From Promethearchaeota archaeon (GTDB taxonomy: Archaea; Asgardarchaeota; Lokiarchaeia; Sigyniarchaeales; SOKP01), in assembly GCA_016839765.1 (NCBI GenBank), contig JAEOTP010000032.1:1-40502 (forward strand): a DNA stretch of 40,502 nucleotides, written 5' to 3'. Every line of letters begins with the position of its first letter. The stretch's first letter is position 1. The notes beneath the pieces are model-generated. The model was given only the letters and a program-made list of their open reading frames with translations. It searched no databases and was not told the origin of the DNA. Both the position numbers and the translations under genes were made by a program. Below are positions 245 through 13,100 of this stretch, one piece after another.

Positions 245-1810
245 TTACTTTATAGCCCTGGTATTTACAATAGCATTTAGCATTACTTTAAGATTTTCAA
301 ACATCTGTTCTCTAAAGTCAAGACCGATTTTAAGAAATAGAATGGAAACTAACTTTTCCTCTAAATCTTCTTCGATATGGAATTGTTCCATTAGCCGAGA
401 TAAATTAATGTCATCGTTAACTCTTAATCCAACGATTATAACTCTCTTTTTTCTTATTTTTTTAATTATATCAATTAAAATGTCTTTCCATTTAGGATCA
501 ATATCTTTTTTATCCCGTGCATCAAAAATTACAAACGCACCATCTGTATTTGCAAGATTATAATTATCATAAGGAAAATTATTAATAATTAAACCATTTT
601 TATATGCATATAACTGTTCTTGAGCACTGTCTTTAATTTTTGAATATTCACCAAGTTTTTCTAACTCGGTTATAGTATGGAAACCAGGACTCCAATTCAA
701 GTTTTCAGTAATAAAGGATAATTCTAAAATAATAAGCTTTTTCAAGGTGGAAATTATGAGATCTGCTAATTCATCTTTAATCATATCTTTTTCTTTTTGC
801 TTTATTCTTAAAATATAATGATAAGCAATCAATTTAAAAGCATCTGAAACGTTGGTACCATCTAGAGCGCTCGTTTCTGTGTAAGATAATCCCTTTTCTG
901 AAAGAGCATTTGCCAAATCTTCTCCCTGTTGAAATGAAACTACTCTATGATCCTCTAAATCTGTTTTATTACCAGCGATCACCATAGGAATCTCTTCTTC
1001 TTTAATATATTCTGTTATTTCATCATACCAATTTTTAACATTATCATACGATTCGCGATTTGTGATATCATAAACAATAAAAGCTGCCTCAGCTCCAGAA
1101 TAATACAGCTTTCTGAACCTTTTAAAGTATTGCTGAGCTCCTATGTCCCATAATGTTAAATTAATTTCATTTCCTTGAAAAGTAAACGTATGGGCTAAAA
1201 TATTTAAACCGATAGTAGGTCTATAATCAAAAGCGAATTTTCGTTCTACAAATCTACGAATAATAGAGGTCTTACCAACTTCATGATCCCCAACAATAAC
1301 AAATTTAAATGAATATGCTCCTCTTTCTTCAAGATCACTAACTTGAAATATCTGTTGTTTTAGTTTTTCATGTCTGTCCACTTCCTCCTCAAAATTTGGG
1401 ATGGTTAATTGAAGTAAATCATCTTCCTGAGCGTGTAGGATCTGTGCTGACTTTTCGGCGAGGAAATAAGCATAAGGTGATATTTCGTCAATAGAGGCCA
1501 TGCTTGTCAAAACTAGGCTTAAAATTCTTTCTTGATCAATTGAAACAAATAATAATCTATATTCGTCAGTATCAAAACTAGCGGTACCAAATTTCTGAAA
1601 AGCAAATTCATTTCTTATTCTTTCAAGTACAGGATTAATTAAAGTAGTCAAGACGGAAACAATTTCAAGGTCACTGCTAATATCTTTTCTTTTTTCTCCA
1701 GCGATAATTAAACCTTCAACGTCAGATATAATAACTGCTTCCAGTTGCTGGAATCTATCTAAAAAACTACTTAATAACTCACGAAAAAGTTTATTCCTTT
1801 TAATTACCAA
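245..1810 (-). CDS. Roadblock/LC7 - Ras-like GTPase fusion with degenerate C-terminal domain
   Basis: A 521-residue protein, probably a cytosolic or membrane-peripheral signalling GTPase. Residues about 5-130 fit a Roadblock/LC7 dimerisation fold (VIISDVEGLIIAG, FGTASFD, YFLAEKSAQIL). Residues 168-335 are a Rab/Ras-type G domain: P-loop GDHEVGKTS at 174-182, switch I Thr199 in YRPTIG, G3 WDIGAQ at 221-226, G4 NKTD at 281-284, G5 ETSAL at 312-316. The switch II Gly of DxxGQ is Ala225. Residues 345-521 carry no motif I can name, but 424-512 resemble the second half of a G domain without its nucleotide motifs (GAFVIFDARD, RVIIVGLRVND). There is no C-terminal prenylation Cys. The start is TTG at 1810 behind GGGGCG. 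It is a tandem paralogue of the next gene. GTP hydrolysis is inferred, not shown. Confidence 0.88.
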   Translation of the reverse strand: MVIKRNKLFRELLSSFLDRFQQLEAVIISDVEGLIIAGEKRKDISSDLEIVSVLTTLINPVLERIRNEFAFQKFGTASFDTDEYRLLFVSIDQERILSLVLTSMASIDEISPYAYFLAEKSAQILHAQEDDLLQLTIPNFEEEVDRHEKLKQQIFQVSDLEERGAYSFKFVIVGDHEVGKTSIIRRFVERKFAFDYRPTIGLNILAHTFTFQGNEINLTLWDIGAQQYFKRFRKLYYSGAEAAFIVYDITNRESYDNVKNWYDEITEYIKEEEIPMVIAGNKTDLEDHRVVSFQQGEDLANALSEKGLSYTETSALDGTNVSDAFKLIAYHYILRIKQKEKDMIKDELADLIISTLKKLIILELSFITENLNWSPGFHTITELEKLGEYSKIKDSAQEQLYAYKNGLIINNFPYDNYNLANTDGAFVIFDARDKKDIDPKWKDILIDIIKKIRKKRVIIVGLRVNDDINLSRLMEQFHIEEDLEEKLVSILFLKIGLDFREQMFENLKVMLNAIVNTRAIK

Positions 1811-1948
1811 TTAAAGCGCCCCTTTTTTTTGATTTAGATCAATTTTAATCTTAAATTATACTTACAAATAATATAGCAACCCATATTTTTAAAAATGGTT
1901 ATTTATTAATCATTACTATCTACAGAAAAAGAAGGATATAAAATAGTT

Positions 1949-3517
1949 CTAACTTAAATCTTTGATTGTATTTAACATTACTTCCAGCTGATCATAGATT
2001 TCAAGGCGATATTCAATACCAATTTTAAAAAATAACAAAGAAATCATTTTATTCTCTATATATTTATTTATATTAAATTCTTCCAATATTTGAGACCAAT
2101 CACTTGCTTCAGATACTCTAATTCCTATTAGGGCTACTTTATTCTCAGTAATGTTATTTATAATATTTATCACAGTTTCTTTCCATTTTGGTTCAATATG
2201 CTCCTTTTCTCGGGCATCAAAAATTATAAATACTCCATCTGAATCAGAAATATCAATATTATCAAAGAGAAAATTCTTTATAACTAAACCATTTGAATAT
2301 TCATATACTCTCCTATCTTTATCATCTTTTACTTTCTCACAATCACATAGTTTATTAATTTCTGTTAAAATTTGTAATCCTGGACTCCAAAGAGGATTTT
2401 CAGTGATAAAAGAAATTACAAGTTTTTCATTTTTATCTAATATTGAATTTAATATATTCATCAAATCTAGCTTTAAACGTTGTTCCTCTATTTCTATACT
2501 TCTCATAATATAATGGTAAGCTATTAAATTAAAAGCATCTTCTATACTTTCTCCAGTTAACGCACTTGTTTCAATAAATGAAATTCCTCCCTCATATTGA
2601 CCACTTGCTAATTCACTTGTTAATTTTACACCATCTTCATAGCTTATTACTCTCTGGTTAGTTAAATCAATTTTATTTCCAATAATGACAATCGGTAATT
2701 GTTTATTCTCTAAGATTTTTCTTAATTCATAATACCAATCTTTTACATGGATGTAGGATTCTTGGTTTGTTACATCAAACACAATAAATCCTGCTTGGGC
2801 ACCAGAATAATAAGTTTTGCGGAATCTTTTAAAAAATTCTTGGGCACCCAGATCCCAAAAATTAAATGTAACTTGATTACCATAAGATTTAATACTATGA
2901 CTCATTATATTTAATCCTAGAGTAGGACGATAATCAAATGAAAATTTCTTTTCTACAAATTGTCGAATTATCGATGTTTTACCTACTTCATGATCACCGA
3001 TAAATATACATTTAAATTTATACTTACCACCTGAATCTAGTCTCATTTGATATATTTGTTCTTTTATCCTACCAGAATTTTCAGAGAGACTTACCTCAAC
3101 TTCAAAATTCGGTATTGTTAATTGAATGAGGTCTCCCTCTTTTGCATTTAATATTTGGGCAGTCTTCTCCGCTAGAAAATAACCATAGGGACTAACTTTA
3201 TCAATTGAACCTAGAGTATTTAGAACTATACTTAAAGTTGTAGTCTCATCAATGGAGATAAACAGCAATCGATAATTCTCAGTATCAAAGCTTGCAGTTC
3301 CAAATTTCTTAAAGGCGAATTCGTCCCTCATACGTTCTAAAATAGGTTGGATTAATCCAGTTAGAACCGACACTAATTCCAGATCTACACTAACTTTCTT
3401 CTCTCCCGCGATTACAAACCCTTCATGATCAGAAACAATCACTGCTTCGAGATCATCATCAATTTCCAAGAATTTGGTATATAATTCTTTGAAGAGTGGA
3501 TCAATATTTATTGCCAT
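1949..3517 (-). CDS. Roadblock/LC7 - Ras-like GTPase fusion, tandem paralogue
   Basis: A 522-residue protein collinear with its downstream neighbour over its whole length, so the pair arose by tandem duplication. Roadblock/LC7 domain about 5-130 (VIVSDHEGFVIAG, FGTASFD). The G domain has P-loop GDHEVGKTS at 174-182, switch I YRPTLG with Thr199, G3 WDLGAQ at 221-226, G4 NKID at 281-284, and a G5 ETSAL. As in the paralogue, Ala225 replaces the usual switch II glycine. The C-terminal region keeps the WSPG motif, GVFIIFDARE and ALIGIRVSE seen in the partner. The start is ATG at 3517 with a GAGGA Shine-Dalgarno 6 bases upstream. The 139-base gap to the next gene on this strand may hold a separate promoter. 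The divergent RING-finger gene shares the 125-base upstream region. Confidence 0.88.
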   Translation of the reverse strand: MAINIDPLFKELYTKFLEIDDDLEAVIVSDHEGFVIAGEKKVSVDLELVSVLTGLIQPILERMRDEFAFKKFGTASFDTENYRLLFISIDETTTLSIVLNTLGSIDKVSPYGYFLAEKTAQILNAKEGDLIQLTIPNFEVEVSLSENSGRIKEQIYQMRLDSGGKYKFKCIFIGDHEVGKTSIIRQFVEKKFSFDYRPTLGLNIMSHSIKSYGNQVTFNFWDLGAQEFFKRFRKTYYSGAQAGFIVFDVTNQESYIHVKDWYYELRKILENKQLPIVIIGNKIDLTNQRVISYEDGVKLTSELASGQYEGGISFIETSALTGESIEDAFNLIAYHYIMRSIEIEEQRLKLDLMNILNSILDKNEKLVISFITENPLWSPGLQILTEINKLCDCEKVKDDKDRRVYEYSNGLVIKNFLFDNIDISDSDGVFIIFDAREKEHIEPKWKETVINIINNITENKVALIGIRVSEASDWSQILEEFNINKYIENKMISLLFFKIGIEYRLEIYDQLEVMLNTIKDLS

Positions 3518-3642
3518 CGTAAATCCTCAAGAGTAATGAATATTATTATCATATTAGAATGTAATATAAACATGGATAATGTTAAACAACATAAACTTAA
3601 AAATAGTAATTTTATATTTTATTAAAGCGTTTTCGGATTCTA

Positions 3643-4215
3643 ATGGTTAATTGTATTATCTGTCATTTGGGAATGAATGAAGTTGAGAGTTTTCAAGAAT
3701 GCCCAAATGGTCATCCGACTCATAGTGATTGTTTACGAGAATGGTTACTCCACTCTTCAAACTGCCCATTGTGTAATGAGCCATACCCTCAAATTATTAT
3801 CGACAAATTCAAAACTTATATTAACAAGAAGGAATTGGAAGATCAAAAAGCATTTGAAGAGGAACGCAAAAAAGAAACGGTAGAAAAAATAGAAAAGGTT
3901 ACTGATCAAATTGCATTTATGAAATTTACTGAATCTATTGACATTTTGATTGAACAAAAAGAATATGATTATGCATTCTCTAGATTAGAAATGCATAATG
4001 AACAAAATATATCGACCGAGAAAGGCAGGATGATTACTTTTCTTAAAGGTAAATTAAATTATTTAAAAGGCAGATATGATTTAGCAATCAACTTTTTGTT
4101 TAAATTAGTCAAGGAAAAATTTGATTATCCTGAAGGATTTCTTTATCTTGGTAAAGCATATGAGGCGCTTGGATTAGCTGATAAAGCACAATGGGCTTAT
4201 GAAAGAGTTAAATAA
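3643..4215 (+). CDS. RING-H2 finger protein with TPR-like C-terminus (candidate E3 ubiquitin ligase)
   Basis: A 190-residue protein. The first 44 residues form a textbook RING-H2 signature: C4-x2-C7-x12-C20-x3-H24-x2-H27-x2-C30-x10-C41-x2-C44, with the CPLC and REWL residues that in known RINGs contact the E2 enzyme. Residues 55-90 are a charged helix; about 95-190 are TPR-like helices (KEYDYAFSRLE, GRYDLAINFLFKLVKE, FLYLGKAYEALGLADKAQWAYERV), presumably a substrate-binding arm. RING domains joined to a ubiquitin-like system are known from Asgard archaea, but no ubiquitin, E1 or E2 gene lies in this window. It starts 125 bases from the divergent GTPase gene and ends 26 bases before thiD-thiN, with which it may be cotranscribed. 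The zinc-finger call is firm; ligase activity is inference. Confidence 0.8.
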   Translation: MVNCIICHLGMNEVESFQECPNGHPTHSDCLREWLLHSSNCPLCNEPYPQIIIDKFKTYINKKELEDQKAFEEERKKETVEKIEKVTDQIAFMKFTESIDILIEQKEYDYAFSRLEMHNEQNISTEKGRMITFLKGKLNYLKGRYDLAINFLFKLVKEKFDYPEGFLYLGKAYEALGLADKAQWAYERVK

Positions 4216-4241: not shown

Positions 4242-5636
4242 ATGAAAAATTTTTGCTTAACAATTGCAGGTTCAGATCCAACTTCTGGGGCCGGTATTCA
4301 AGCAGATATTAGAACCTTTGACAGATGTGGAGTTCATCCTTTTTCTGTTATAACAGCAATTACGTATCAATCAGCTACAAAATTCCTTGGATATAAATCT
4401 CTTTCAGATACTCTTGATTTTCAATTAGATGCTATCTTAAGCGTTTATCCGATTGAATATGTAAAAGTGGGTATGATTCCAGATGTAAAAGCACTTGACA
4501 TTATTGTTAATTTCATCAAAAGAGATAAACTATTTGTTGTATATGATCCTGTATCAATATCTAGCGTAGGAGAAAGACTTTCGAGTGAAGGATTAGAATT
4601 AGAAATTGAACGAAACCTATTTCCTCATGTGAGAGTTCTTACACCTAATCTCTCAGAGGCAGAATACTATTCTAATATGAATTTAAAAGACGTCAGAGTA
4701 GAAAACATGGATAAACTCAAGGAGTCAGCAAGGATTCTCTTAGAAAAACTATATGCTGATAAAAAAGTTAAGAATGAAGAAAAAGCGGTTGTAATTAAGA
4801 GTGTATTGAGTACTCAAAATGAAATCTATGATGTTATCAGCTTTATTAAAAAAGCAGAATTAGACTTTAACATTTTTAAAAAAAAGAAAATTTCAATTGA
4901 AAGAAATATTCACGGAACTGGATGTGTATTTTCCTCTGCTATAACGGCATTTCTTTCCAAAAATTATTCTATAATAAGAGCTATTGAAATGGCAGAGGTT
5001 TTTTTTGACGAAAAATTCCAATATTTTATTGAATTACCAGATGCAGGTCGATTACTTGATTTAACTTTCTCTGAAGAAAGATTAAAAGTTATAAATCAAA
5101 TCAAGGAAGTTTATAATTATATTTCCAATATTAAAAAATTTACACAATTAATTCCAGAAGTTAGGTTAAATATTTCATGTTCTCTACCACATGCAAAGGA
5201 TAAGTCTGAAGTTGCTGGAATAGAAGGTCGAGTAACAATCATAAACAAATTTCCAAAAGCTTCTGGTGAAATTAAATTTGGAATCTCAGATCATACTGCA
5301 AGATTAATCCTTGCTGCTAAAAAGTTTGATAATTCTATCAATTTTGTAATGAATTTAAAATATAATCCTGATTGGATATCTTTAATTCGAAATAATACGA
5401 CATTGAAATTACGTGAAATAAAAAGGGAAAAACAGCCTAAAGAAATAAAAGAGCAAGAATTTTCTACTATGCAGTGGTTAATTAAAGAGAGTATTAACGA
5501 ATCAGGAAAAATACCGGATATTATTTGGGATAAGGGATCTATAGGAAAAGAAGCTATTATCAGAGTTTTTGCTAAGGATTCAAAGGACATGATAAATAAA
5601 CTTCAAAATATTATAGAATTGATTGAAGATCACTAG
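4242..5636 (+). CDS. thiDN: ThiD-ThiN fusion: HMP/HMP-phosphate kinase and thiamine-phosphate synthase
   Basis: A 464-residue bifunctional thiamine biosynthesis enzyme. Residues 1-265 are the PfkB-like ThiD kinase, which phosphorylates hydroxymethylpyrimidine and its monophosphate: TIAGSDPTSGAGIQAD near the start, then VYDPVSISS, LTPNLSEAE and the anion-hole motif HGTGCVFSSAITAFL. From about 285 on is ThiN, the archaeal thiamine-phosphate synthase that replaces ThiE: AGIEGRV, KASGEIKFGISDHTARLIL, and the terminal IPDIIWDKGSIGKEA. This domain order is the usual archaeal one. It starts 26 bases after the RING gene, leaving no room for a full promoter and leader, so it is probably cotranscribed. 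thiC lies 2.4 kb away. A decayed copy of the last 61 codons lies at 7646-7873. Confidence 0.93.
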   Translation: MKNFCLTIAGSDPTSGAGIQADIRTFDRCGVHPFSVITAITYQSATKFLGYKSLSDTLDFQLDAILSVYPIEYVKVGMIPDVKALDIIVNFIKRDKLFVVYDPVSISSVGERLSSEGLELEIERNLFPHVRVLTPNLSEAEYYSNMNLKDVRVENMDKLKESARILLEKLYADKKVKNEEKAVVIKSVLSTQNEIYDVISFIKKAELDFNIFKKKKISIERNIHGTGCVFSSAITAFLSKNYSIIRAIEMAEVFFDEKFQYFIELPDAGRLLDLTFSEERLKVINQIKEVYNYISNIKKFTQLIPEVRLNISCSLPHAKDKSEVAGIEGRVTIINKFPKASGEIKFGISDHTARLILAAKKFDNSINFVMNLKYNPDWISLIRNNTTLKLREIKREKQPKEIKEQEFSTMQWLIKESINESGKIPDIIWDKGSIGKEAIIRVFAKDSKDMINKLQNIIELIEDH

Positions 5637-8048: not shown

Positions 8049-9362
8049 TTAAAATTCTTTTTTTAAGGCTTTTTTGTCTAAAGCATCTTTTAGAAGCTTA
8101 ATCGCACAAAATTCTCCGCACATACTACACACATCATCATCAATATTGCCATTTCTATAATGAGTTTCCCTCGAGAGATCGGGATCTATTGATTGCTTTA
8201 TCATTTCTTCCCAATCAAGATTTTTTCGCGCAAGGTCCATCTTATAATCCCAGTTTGAAGCTTTTTTACCATATTTAGCAATATTCACCGCATGAGCGGC
8301 TATTTTAGACGCAATAACACCTCTTTTTACTTCATCCTTATTTGGAAGTGCTAAATGTTCAGAGGGAGTGACGTAACATAAATAATCAGCACCTGCTAAC
8401 CCAGCAAGTACACCACCAATGGCACTAACAAGATGATCATAACCAGGAGCTATATCTGTGACCAATGGTCCCAATACGTAAAATGGCGCCCCATCACATA
8501 CAGATTTCATAATTTTAATATTTCTTTCAATTTCATGTGCAGGAATATGACCAGGCCCTTCAACCATAACTTGGACATTTTTATCTCTAGCTCGTTTAAC
8601 TAATTTCGATATTTCCATTAACTCTTGAACCTGAGCGTAATCTGTTGAATCAAAAATACAGCCAGGACGCATACCATCTCCAAGGGAAAGTGTAAAATCA
8701 TATTCTGTAGCCATTTCAAGTAAATAATCATAATTTTTATTAAAAGGGTTCTCCAAATCATTTTCGAGTATCCAAGCTGCCAAAAAGGTTCCACCACGCG
8801 ACACCACTCCCATGTGTCTTGGATGTTGTCTTAAATAATTAACTATCTCTTTAGTTACTCCTACATGTATGGTAAAGAAATCTACTCCTTCTTTAGCTTG
8901 TTCTTTAACTACATTAAATAAATCATCTTCATCAAAATTAATAATTGCCCCTTTTTTTTCAATAGCTCGTAAGGCAGATTGGTAAATAGGTACAGTGCCT
9001 ATAGGAATTTTTGTTTCGCTCAGTATTAAACTTCGAATTTTTTTAACATCTTCTTCAGTTACTCCAGTACTTAAATCCATAACTGTATCTGCTCCATACT
9101 TGACAGCTATTTTCGCTTTCTCTACTTCTCCTTGAATATCACACACTCTTTTACTTGAACCAATATTTGCATTAATTTTCACTAATAAGCCTTCTCCAAT
9201 TCCTAAAGGATCTGTGTCTCGTTGATTCGATTTAGGAATGATTATCCGACCGTTTGCTATGCCTCGTCTTATGAATTCTGATTCAACTTGTTCATTTTTG
9301 GCAACAATTTCCATTTCTTTAGTAATTCTGCCTTCTTTAGCATTTCTCACTAATGTAGTCAA
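8049..9362 (-). CDS. thiC: Phosphomethylpyrimidine synthase ThiC
   Basis: A 437-residue radical SAM enzyme that rearranges aminoimidazole ribotide into hydroxymethylpyrimidine phosphate, the substrate of the ThiD domain encoded at 4242-5636. The C-terminal cluster motif CSMCGEFC gives Cys412, Cys415 and Cys419, the CX2CX4C that ligates the [4Fe-4S] cluster in this family. Also typical are MDLSTGVTEED, GTVPIYQSA, SLGDGMRPGC, MVEGPGHIPAHEI and the GADYLCYVTPSEHL stretch. The length matches the short archaeal form. The start is TTG at 9362, with GGGGC about 10 bases upstream; residues 1-10 are family-like (LVRNAKEGRIT). No TPP riboswitch elements (such as a CUGAGA box) are visible in the 152 bases upstream. 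Confidence 0.96.
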   Translation of the reverse strand: MTTLVRNAKEGRITKEMEIVAKNEQVESEFIRRGIANGRIIIPKSNQRDTDPLGIGEGLLVKINANIGSSKRVCDIQGEVEKAKIAVKYGADTVMDLSTGVTEEDVKKIRSLILSETKIPIGTVPIYQSALRAIEKKGAIINFDEDDLFNVVKEQAKEGVDFFTIHVGVTKEIVNYLRQHPRHMGVVSRGGTFLAAWILENDLENPFNKNYDYLLEMATEYDFTLSLGDGMRPGCIFDSTDYAQVQELMEISKLVKRARDKNVQVMVEGPGHIPAHEIERNIKIMKSVCDGAPFYVLGPLVTDIAPGYDHLVSAIGGVLAGLAGADYLCYVTPSEHLALPNKDEVKRGVIASKIAAHAVNIAKYGKKASNWDYKMDLARKNLDWEEMIKQSIDPDLSRETHYRNGNIDDDVCSMCGEFCAIKLLKDALDKKALKKEF

Positions 9363-9514: not shown

Positions 9515-9985
9515 TTATTCAAAACCAATTTTTAACTGTTGTAATAGCTCAATTAAAGAATTAGTTAACTTATAGTTTTTTAACGCATCAAATGGGACAA
9601 ATTTAGCTTCTAATGCATCAGAATCAGGTATTGGTGGTTGATTTGGATCGCCTCCAACTTGTTCTACAAAATAATTGATTAAAACGTAGTGATATTCAAC
9701 TTTCCCCGCTTTATCATACATTACTTTATCAATTATTCCTGCCAATTTTGTAACTTTTACTTTAAATCCTGTCTCTTCAAAACCTTCTCTCTCAGCTGCG
9801 GTAATTACTTTTTCTCCAAGTTCTAAATGTCCACCTGGTATTGACCAATATCCGGCATCTGGATCATATTTTCTTTTTACTAATAATAATGATTTATTAC
9901 GAATTAGAAGAATTCCCACCCCCACGTGGGGTCGAACCGGGTATTTCCTTGTATCAAAAGCGGTTAATTTATCTTTGTTAACCAT
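9515..9985 (-). CDS. Nudix hydrolase
   Basis: A 156-residue protein with a Nudix box at residues 52-74: GHLELGE, seven residues, then REGFEETGF, which matches GX5EX7REUXEEXGU except that Gly takes the first hydrophobic position. Upstream, VGVGILLIRN and LLLVKRKYDPDAGYWSIPGG are the usual first strands of the fold. Family members hydrolyse nucleoside diphosphates linked to another moiety, using Mg2+ bound by the Nudix glutamates. The substrate cannot be predicted here. ATG start; monocistronic on the minus strand, 152 bases upstream of thiC. A tie to thiamine metabolism (some Nudix enzymes act on thiamine pyrophosphates) is speculative. Confidence 0.9.
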   Translation of the reverse strand: MVNKDKLTAFDTRKYPVRPHVGVGILLIRNKSLLLVKRKYDPDAGYWSIPGGHLELGEKVITAAEREGFEETGFKVKVTKLAGIIDKVMYDKAGKVEYHYVLINYFVEQVGGDPNQPPIPDSDALEAKFVPFDALKNYKLTNSLIELLQQLKIGFE

Positions 9986-10161
9986 ATAATCTCATTTTAA
10001 AATTGTTATCAAAATCAAAATCTTCTCTGGATTGAAATAATATTTTATTAATTTTTTATTAATTTTATCATACTTTTTTGACTAAAAATATAAATACTTA
10101 TATTGATATTAACTTGATAATTTCTACAATTATTATAAATAAATCTTAGGCGAAATTACAA

Positions 10162-13100
10162 ATGTATAGATTGAAAAAGAAGTTTAAAAGCATCTTTTTA
10201 CTAATATTCCTTACTTTAATATTATTGCTTTCATTTAATGCTCCTTCTAGCCTTTATAAATCTTCTAAAATGGATTTAAATTCTACTGATCAAGATTTAG
10301 TAAATTATAAGAATTCAGACCATACTTTTATCTATACTCTAAACGGTAATCAATATTTAGCAGAGTATATAACAAAAGATAAAATTGAGGAGATGAAAAA
10401 AGATGGAGTGTTTGAGGAAGCAAGAAGAAATTACAATGATATTATCGATGGTCATGGTACAGGATATTCTAAACCAACGGCAGATGATTTGGATTCTCTT
10501 GTTGGAAAAATATCATTATTAGGATTAGTTTCAGATTACAAACGAGGCTATAAAGCTACAGCAGATATTTCAACAGAAATATATTTTCCGGTAGTTGGAG
10601 ATCAAGGTAGGCAGGGTTCTTGTACCTCATGGGCTAATGTATATTATGCTTTTGGATATTTAGAAGCAAAAGATTATGGATGGGATGCAAGTTCGGGAAA
10701 TCCAAACTACTTATTAAGTCCAGCATGGTCATATAATAAAATAGCTGCTTATGATTATGGCTCAATACCTTCGGAAACTGCTGAACTTATAAAACAGTGG
10801 GGTGTAGCAACTTTAAGCACTATGCCTTATAATGATATGGATGTTAATAATTGGGGAAATGAAGCTGCTTGGCGAGAAGCTCCTTATCATAGGCCTCTTG
10901 ATTATAGTCTAATTACCTATGTAGGTAATTCCACCATTGATGTTATCAAAAGTATACTAGACAGTGGAACTCCAGTTACTATCGGAATTGATGCGAATCA
11001 ATTTTCCAATGGATTGAATGATACAGATTATATACTATCTTCAGATGAATATAATGTAGTTGGATTAAATCACGCACAATGTTTTGTGGGATATGATGAT
11101 TCCATTTCAGAAGGAAGTGATATAGGAGCATTTAGAGTGGTCAATTCATGGGGGGCTGGTTGGATGGACGATGGATATTATTGGTTAACCTACGATGCGT
11201 TTCACGAATTCGGAGCTGTTGGTGATCAGCAAATAGTTTTCCTAACCGATCGAATTGACTATAATCCTGATTTAATTGCTACATGGGAATTTAGTCCAGG
11301 ATCAACTAGAATGGGTGATATTTTAACATTAGGAGTTGGTCCACATGATACCCCATTAGATTATATAACTCCGCATTATGATGCTGATGTTAATAACTTA
11401 TTTCCGGAATTTATGGCATTCGATATTACAGACTTTTACACCTATTATAATATAAATAACGATGTATTTTTTTATCTTGAGATTGGTTCAGCTGATATTA
11501 ATGGAATAATATCATCATTTAAACTTGAAAGATATCTAGGGGGAATTCTCCAACAGATTTCCCAAGAATCACCTGATGTCCCAGAAAATACTCCGGGATA
11601 TGTAAATGCTACATTTATGATTTTTAATCACGAACTAAAACTGTGTTTAAAAGCTCCAACAGATCCTAAAATATACAATCCTTATCAGATTGAAGCGTTA
11701 GTAATCAATAATGGTGCTAGTGGTGAAACCAGCGTAGATTTTGATTTACTGCTCAATAATGTTCCAGTTCATTCAATTACTATTCCTAGTCTTTCAAGTG
11801 GAACAAATACAACTATTATTTATCTATGGACACCCACGGAATATGAGGTTTATAATTTCACCGCATATGTGCCTCCGGTGCCTGGAGAAACGTATAGATC
11901 TAACAATTATGCCTCTGAAATATTATATATACTAGGCCCAATTTTTTATGATGATTTTGAAAGTGGCTTATCTCAGTGGGTATCCATAACAGGGCTTTGG
12001 CATTTAACTGACAATAGTAGTGCATGGTTAAATCCATATAATTCACCGATTCATTCTATGTGGTTTGGTAATGAATCTACTGGTAACTATGAAACAGGTT
12101 TTCAAGAATTTGGAAGTATAACATCAACCTCCATTAACTTAATGACTATTGGTGTAGCTTTCTTAGAGTTTTACCATTGGCGAGAAGGAGAAGGACATGG
12201 GTATGATATTTCTTATGTATATATATCTATTGATGGTTTTATTTGGGATCTCATTTATCAAACTGATGAATATCACATTATGCCATGGGAAAAAGTATCT
12301 ATAGATATCTCTGCTTATACTGGAAATCCTTCAGTGCAAATAATGTTTGAGTTTGATACGATTGATAATATTGCAAATGATTATAGAGGTTGGTTAATAG
12401 ATGACATAGTAATTATGGGTACAGGAGTAGTTATACCACATGATTTAAGAGTTTCGCTAGATGTTCCTGAGTTTCCTACAATTTCTAATACTTACTCTAT
12501 TAATGCTACAATTACTAATACTGGAACGAGTGACGAATCGGATGTAGATCTATTCTTCTATTTAGATGGGATTTTGATAGATTCCATTTATATATCAAAT
12601 TTTCCTTCTGGGACCAGCCAAACCATTAATTATCTATGGACTCCCACTGACTATGGAGATTATAGTTTTAAGGCATATGCTCCACCAGTAATAGGGGAGA
12701 CTTATACAATGGATAATCTTAAATTGAAATTAATACCAATTCACGAGATAATACTTTTTGATGGATTAATACTCAACTACTCATTTACTATATCTGGTCA
12801 AACTTATCTTATGCAATGTGGATATTCATCTCTTTCAGAGAAAGATTTTCATGCTGATTACTCAATATATAATGGAAGTATTCTTCTCCTAAAAGGCTAT
12901 TGGGAGGTAAATAGTCAAACAAGAATTATAACTGATTCTTCTATTACAGGGTTTATTCTTCTGGATGTCGGATTACACACACCTTTATGGATCTTTACAG
13001 ATAGTTCAATCGGTGATGAAATTCCCATATCGGTTGCTGGTTCAGACCATATGTTTAACGTATCAGATGAATTAACTTATAATCTCTCTGATTTTGGATT

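Follow-up and report, generated by a model that had tools for sequence, protein, structure and literature searches.

Two adjacent Lokiarchaeal genes for roadblock-GTPase proteins ending in a probable Arf-like pseudo-G domain

The present study concerns two neighbouring genes, p1 and p2, on a stretch of 40,502 nucleotides (the window; contig JAEOTP010000032.1 of assembly GCA_016839765.1) from a Promethearchaeota archaeon of the Lokiarchaeia. Each gene encodes a protein with an N-terminal roadblock domain, a Rab-like G domain and a C-terminal degenerate G domain. A preliminary description of this DNA had proposed a roadblock, an active GTPase and a pseudo-GTPase on one chain; the positions of both open reading frames were confirmed, on the minus strand, and the layout, with a GTPase domain that is putatively active, was borne out by roadblock matches of the N-terminal regions, by intact motifs and a Rab match in the main G domain and by an Arf fold without G motifs at the C-terminus. 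The C-terminal domain is very probably a pseudo-G domain. As a whole, the proteins are best explained as a roadblock domain and a Rab-like GTPase joined to an Arf-descended pseudoGTPase that serves for docking, an account which we regard as probable.

Pfam recognises in p1 and p2 a single Ras-type G domain each (residues about 165–333), and 0 families at E<=1 in residues 341–522 of p2. A model of p2 341–522, built with 36 rows (the window and loci L041–L058) and without ligand, reached a predicted local distance difference test score (pLDDT) of 89.9 and a predicted template modelling score (pTM) of 0.87. Its elements follow the order b1-a1-b-b2-b3-b4-a3-b5-a4-b6-a5; in domain numbering, a helix at 2–22 is followed by b1 (26–32), a1 (39–47), strands at 53–58, 62–67 and 71–77, b4 (88–94), a3 (103–115), b5 (120–127), a4 (134–141), b6 (152–159) and a5 (163–181). 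The Ras/Arf order is thus complete except for switch II/helix 2, about 10 residues connecting b3 to b4. The preliminary description had seen a degenerate G domain that repeats only the second half of the fold. The degenerate G domain was confirmed, but the restriction to the second half was wrong, and since b1-a1-b2-b3 is present too the domain is nearly a whole G domain.

The structure searches point to the Arf family. Foldseek returned 154 PDB matches at E<=0.001 with the Arf family first, the best being the Arf GTPase 3lrp (E 1.3e-6, template modelling (TM) score 0.58). In the VIA search the top match was the Asgard HodArfR1-GDP (Z 14.2 over 163 residues, 3.3 A, 11% identity), and Arf, Arl or Sar is named in 48 of the 50 titles listed; the remaining two (3aq4_A, 9qpq_R) are complexes whose chain is unnamed in the title. 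No confident match to another fold was found. Arf-GDP is characterised by an N-terminal helix that lies in a groove and by an additional strand ahead of b2. The model aligns from residue 5–11 onto full-length Arf-GDP chains, and its helix 341–362 and strand 393–398 correspond to these two elements, which are shared with the best structural matches, Asgard ArfR1 (8oul, 8oun) and eukaryotic Arf-GDP. Unlike them, the C-terminal domain of p1 and p2 has no P-loop, NKxD, SA motif or switch II/helix 2. In the two Asgard Arfs for which both states were listed, the GDP form is matched better than the GTP form: GerdArfR1 gave Z 12.7 against 11.3 in VIA, and for HodArfR1 the GTP form (8ouk) is absent among the 50 VIA matches listed and the Foldseek TM score was 0.56–0.62 for three GDP chains against 0.51 for GTP. 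The predicted domain is therefore read as fixed in the inactive, GDP-like shape of Arf.

The loss of the nucleotide motifs was counted in 70 distinct full-length relatives (loci L001–L078), the sample for all motif and residue counts given here. GxxxxGK[ST] is found in 70/70 main G domains and in 0/70 C-terminal domains. [NT]KxD stands in 70/70 main domains and anywhere in 2/70 C-terminal ones, and the G5 pattern in 69/70 against 3/70 (SA type, anywhere). The C-terminal domain, which has the predicted GTPase fold and is devoid of one or more of the G1–G5 motifs, thus fits class (i) of the pseudoGTPases. It also has the Arf fold with its N-terminal helix, but was not filed as Arf because the P-loop and NKxD are missing, as the preliminary description had noted. 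That description had further picked out a strand ending in FDA, a helix with a Trp, an IGIRV strand and a final strand-helix. This pattern is present, and residues of the domain are conserved in 62–70 of the 70 relatives (D434 in 65, R436 in 67, W445 in 69, R467 in 62, P379 in 70, K498 within 62–69). Since all five guanine-nucleotide motifs and switch II/helix 2 are lost, the domain should neither bind GTP nor switch, and we infer from sequence and model that in p1 and p2 it binds no nucleotide.

Sequence profiles independently pick small GTPases. Profile A2, an alignment of 36 C-terminal domains, gave 9 matches at E<=10 against all PDB sequences, 8 of them Rho-family GTPases, with Rho6/Rnd1 best (E 1.7e-4) and the Rho-family alignments in register over b4-a3-b5. 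With 29 members of greater diversity, 13 matches were obtained. Rho-family GTPases account for 8 of these, the top three having E-values of 3.2e-4 to 3.8e-4; the other 5, with E-values from 0.44 upwards, are unrelated chains. In hhalign, A2 scored 35.4 against an Asgard Arf-like set of 28 domains (81 columns, b4 to b6), 30.1 against 10 Rab-like domains, 28.8 against the proteins' own G domains and 14.7 against the roadblock; A5 scored 32.8 against the Arf-like set. Over 40 column shuffles the maxima against Arf-like were 16.3 (A2) and 18.5 (A5), and that of A2 against Rab-like was 25.8, so that 0/40 reach the real Arf or Rab score. When run on 227 genomes of the phylum, A2 also matched three P-loop-bearing GTPases of Arf-like type (in G090, E 2.4e-4; in G098, 0.0027; in G097, 0.0039), matches that are weak alone because their E-values are per genome. 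As the main domain is Rab-like and the C-terminal one Arf-like, the latter did not simply arise by recent duplication of the adjoining domain.

The main G domain of p2 matches Rab1a (VIA Z 25.4, 31% identity). Its G3 motif is unusual: DxGAQ, not DxGGQ or DxAGQ, is found in 88/96 open reading frames (these include partial copies of the same protein), and DLGGQ or DVAGQ in 5/96, while the proteins of family f4 retain DFGGQ. The Ala of DxGAQ sits at the position of Gly60 in Ras, where we take it to disturb the GTP switch. At the N-terminus the first 140 residues of p2 escape recognition by Pfam. In the full-length model (mean pLDDT 72) this region has the roadblock element order a-b-b-a-b-b-b-a; domains of the roadblock family bring chains together in pairs. 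Profile A7, made of 11 N-terminal regions including other roadblock-GTPase proteins of the host genome, matched only proteins of roadblock/MglB/CvnB type in the PDB at E<=1 (7/7, best E 1.1e-4); CvnB is described as a roadblock protein in the available part of PMC4316618. A VIA search of the full-length model was uninformative on the other parts, its list being filled by the main G domain. The coordinates are collected in Table 1.

Table 1. Positions in the window of p1, p2, their domains and neighbouring genes
Feature	Positions	Strand	Description and basis
p2	1949..3517	-	roadblock, Rab-like GTPase, putative pseudo-Arf protein; 522 aa, ATG start
p2 roadblock, residues 1–140	3098..3517	-	profile A7 matches and model element order
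p2 main G domain, residues 164–340	2498..3028	-	Rab-like, G motifs present; Pfam Ras E 1.7e-40
p2 linker helix, residues 325–362	2432..2545	-	single long helix joining main G domain (helix 5) and pseudo-G domain; full-length model, blocks here pLDDT 76–88
p2 putative pseudo-Arf domain, residues 364–520	1958..2428	-	predicted model, Foldseek and VIA Arf matches, profile matches
P-loop place, residues 373–380 (ENPLWSPG)	2378..2401	-	no GxxxxGK[ST]; Pro379 in 70/70, Trp377 in 65/70
Asp-Ala-Arg 434–436, b4 end	2210..2218	-	conserved; aligned with Arf-like IDAxD region (hhalign)
NKxD place, residues 465–469 (GIRVS)	2111..2125	-	model and motif counts
G5 SA motif place, residues 498–500 (KIG)	2018..2026	-	model and motif counts
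p1	245..1810	-	p2 paralogue, identical layout, directly downstream of p2; 521 aa, TTG start
p1 roadblock, residues 1–140	1391..1810	-	aligned in A7
p1 main G domain	803..1321	-	Pfam Ras E 2.3e-48; aligned in A3
p1 linker helix and putative pseudo-Arf domain	248..802	-	aligned in alignments A1/A2
RING-H2 finger and TPR-like repeats, 190 aa	3643..4215	+	divergent neighbour of p2; candidate partner only
ThiD-ThiN fusion	4242–5636		Pfam
ThiC-like gene	8049–9362		named by eye

The layout is conserved in the host's order. It was found in 57/65 genomes of the host's own family (f1), in 1/1 of f2 and 4/5 of f4, and in 0/8 of f3, the carriers being counted by hand after four weak matches to other proteins had been set aside; apart from these four, the putative pseudo-Arf domain was found in none of the other genomes among the 227 searched. 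The matches dropped were the three P-loop Arf-like GTPases of G090, G097 and G098 and a 563-aa frame in G010 which is radical-SAM-type by eye. The main G domain and the C-terminal domain stand together in 70/70 full-length members examined, and 34/57 genomes of f1 have, by the criterion used, the genes as a tandem pair, some others being interrupted by contig ends. Close relatives of p2 occur at 18 named Lokiarchaeota loci, the nearest named being Lokiarchaeota metagenome-assembled genomes. The forms in f4 (L109–L112) are 21–24% identical to p2 and have a longer b3-b4 segment with the helix-like HKEFFAKQLQILKEL at the place of switch II/helix 2; on our reading of the alignment this looks like a less eroded state of the pseudo-G domain.

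Between p1 and p2, which are 53% identical, divergence is greatest in the pseudo-G domain (44% identity, against 57% in the G domain and 64% in the roadblock). Compared with their nearest orthologues, the pseudo-G domains of the window are kept at 92% and 96% identity, with ratios of nonsynonymous to synonymous divergence (dN/dS) of 0.17 and 0.24. A separate observation was made on the main G domain of p2 (window 2498–3028), which is 76% identical to its nearest orthologue (L041:6490–7020) with a synonymous divergence (dS) of 0.74, whereas in the same pair the flanking roadblock is 96% and the pseudo-G domain 92% identical at dS ~0.2. This pattern resembles the outcome of local recombination or of a replacement inside the G domain.

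On the reading that we favour, the roadblock domains would pair p1 with p2, or each protein with itself, and the Rab-like domain would be the GTP switch. The pseudo-Arf domain would hold a partner without switching, the identity of the partner differing between p1 and p2, and could be coupled to the Rab-like domain through the one continuous helix 325–362. Different partners would fit a pseudo-G domain that diverges most between p1 and p2 yet is kept in orthologues. A docking role also fits because the class (i) pseudoGTPases CENP-M and dynein light intermediate chain act as scaffolds, as far as the available parts of PMC5593906 and PMC10211241 tell. We consider the chances about even that the domain serves as a fixed protein-binding domain.

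The main rival is close to the idea of the preliminary description that the layout could give internal dimerisation of GTPases. The pseudo-Arf domain could form a pseudo-dimer by folding back onto the Rab-like domain, either in its own chain or in the one paired with it through the roadblock, and set nucleotide exchange or hydrolysis there. Rag heterodimers offer a parallel, in that their two G domains are believed to act on one another. That the pseudo-Arf and Rab-like domains share a long helix and occur together in every full-length member examined would suit such a role, as the DxGAQ form of G3 would suit an altered cycle. However, a rigid long helix may equally hold the domains apart, and the change in G3 is not universal, as the DLGGQ, DVAGQ and DFGGQ forms show. 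Regulation in cis is possible, if on the unlikely side.

The gene that diverges from p2 suggests another role. In its RING-TPR family zf-RING_2 is found in 10/10 members and TPR_11 in 9/10 at E<=0.1, and the PDB matches of the RING finger are E3 ligases. The gene is divergent and adjacent in 52/57 carrier genomes of f1, with estimated gaps of 109–264 bases, and at 18/18 named loci, and it is present in 54/57 carriers against 0/8 non-carriers (Fisher 3e-8, on genomes that are not independent). No RING-TPR match was found in G029, where both roadblock-G-pseudo-G proteins bear a fused C-terminal TPR array. It could be that the RING-TPR protein is docked by the pseudo-Arf domain and that the GTP state of the Rab-like domain sets where or when a ubiquitin-type ligase acts. 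On the other side, the ThiD/ThiN and ThiC genes are conserved in one block with the RING-TPR gene across genera of the Lokiarchaeia, so the gene order may be inherited without a function, and the link to a ligase is only a lead because of these thiamine genes. The joint absence in 8/8 non-carriers was tried as proof of partnership and is weakened by contig ends (one stands close to the block's ThiC gene in G077 and likewise in G025) and by the thiamine genes, which most of the others also lack. The thiamine block is absent from G029 as well, TPRs are promiscuous, and in f2, f3 and f4 the sequence examined on both sides of the RING gene (6 loci) yielded no roadblock-G-pseudo-G protein. A ligase under control of the GTPase thus appears rather unlikely. 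The broader proposal, decidedly doubtful, is a Lokiarchaeal GTP-controlled module of ubiquitin-type ligation in which a roadblock-paired Rab-like switch would carry a pseudo-Arf arm for docking RING-TPR, and in which pseudoGTPase scaffolding like that at kinetochores and on dynein, tied to small-GTPase and ubiquitin signalling, would predate eukaryotes. It was also observed that the TPR-extended proteins of G029 (L064, G029:C3:252000–264500) are of 822 and 896 aa (1687–4155, 9526–12216) and lie on either side of a 1652-aa protein that by eye is repetitive, of surface type and has LamG-like repeats.

Some results weigh against the favoured account. The Pfam scan of the 36 C-terminal domains individually gave no GTPase match; scattered matches to other Pfam/NCBIfam models (best E 4.8e-4, Schlafen helicase, 2/36) were taken as chance. 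The four f4 sequences alone (alignment A6), used as a profile, gave no signal to any G domain, and one near pair (L044B/L058B) has a dN/dS of 1.07 in the pseudo-G domain, a value from very small dS. Compared with the opposite loops, the former nucleotide face shows no significant concentration of conserved positions (mean entropy of 1.68 bits, against 1.89; p 0.12), and proteins of flavodoxin fold are also among the Foldseek matches, ranked below Arf (SsuE, E 7.4e-5, TM 0.45; Flv1, E 2.4e-4). The face bears on whether the former pocket has been refitted for another small ligand. W377, P379, D434, R436, R467 and K498 (62–70/70) stand in the model at the places of G1, the end of b4, G4 and G5, but such residues could be structural salt bridges, and since conservation of the face as a whole does not stand out significantly, a refitted pocket is no more than a possibility, which we hold to be improbable. 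An antiparallel b2-b3 hairpin is typical of Ras and Arf. A flavodoxin- or receiver-like a/b domain of separate descent, for which SsuE and Flv1 speak together with reversed alignments that reach 21.9 (A2) and 24.1 (A5) against Arf-like, so that plain a/b patterning gives part of the hhalign score, is very improbable given that Arf comes first by E and by TM (at best 0.62, against 0.50) and dominates the VIA list, that the model has this hairpin and that the sequence profiles point to small GTPases.

The proteins differ from the systems which they resemble. In Rag proteins the order is G domain then roadblock. Rag/Gtr proteins likewise have a roadblock and a G domain on one chain and bring two G domains together, but there two nucleotide-binding subunits meet; in p1 and p2 the roadblock is N-terminal and the second, C-terminal G-like domain is in cis and, as it appears, dead, so they do not belong with Rag/Gtr. 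With a roadblock and a Ras-superfamily G domain of intact motifs on one chain they do belong with the Asgard roadblock-GTPase fusions, already known from Lokiarchaeota (Tran et al. 2024, PMC10933270; PMC4917890 Box 1, both as far as available). The architectures in the available part of PMC10933270 are GTPases with longin and/or roadblock; p1 and p2 add a degenerate G domain, of which that part makes no mention. Class (i) is defined in the accessible portion of PMC5593906 by the absence of one or more G1–G5 motifs, with p190RhoGAP pG1/pG2, CENP-M and fungal dynein light intermediate chain as examples. These share with p1 and p2 the GTPase fold, degraded G motifs and deletion of part of the switch region, which is switch I in p190RhoGAP pG1 and switch II here. 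The examples in that portion are eukaryotic, whereas p1 and p2 are archaeal and have an Arf-like fold on one chain with a roadblock and an intact Rab-like GTPase. No published report of a roadblock-GTPase-pseudo-Arf layout was found in the literature searched, which included only a minority of subscription papers.

Other tandem G-domain proteins were met on the way. In the host genome (L117, G000:C54:4300–8200, frame 529–1980 on the plus strand) a 484-aa frame has two G domains, both with a P-loop, a G3 without the usual Asp and NRLN for NKxD in the second domain; it is possibly a half-degenerate tandem GTPase. In L129 (G079:C116, frame 319–2241 on the plus strand) a 641-aa frame encodes a tandem Arf protein, each of whose two Arf-type G domains has a P-loop.

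PseudoGTPases form a small group of scaffolds, most of them from eukaryotes, and a conserved Arf-type pseudoGTPase in Asgard archaea, fused to an intact Rab-like GTPase and a roadblock domain, would date scaffolding by the GTPase fold before eukaryotes. In p1 and p2 a single protein would allow study of how a live G domain and a dead one act together. It should be noted that counts of small GTPases in Asgard archaea miss degenerate G domains of this kind, which are detected by no Pfam model.

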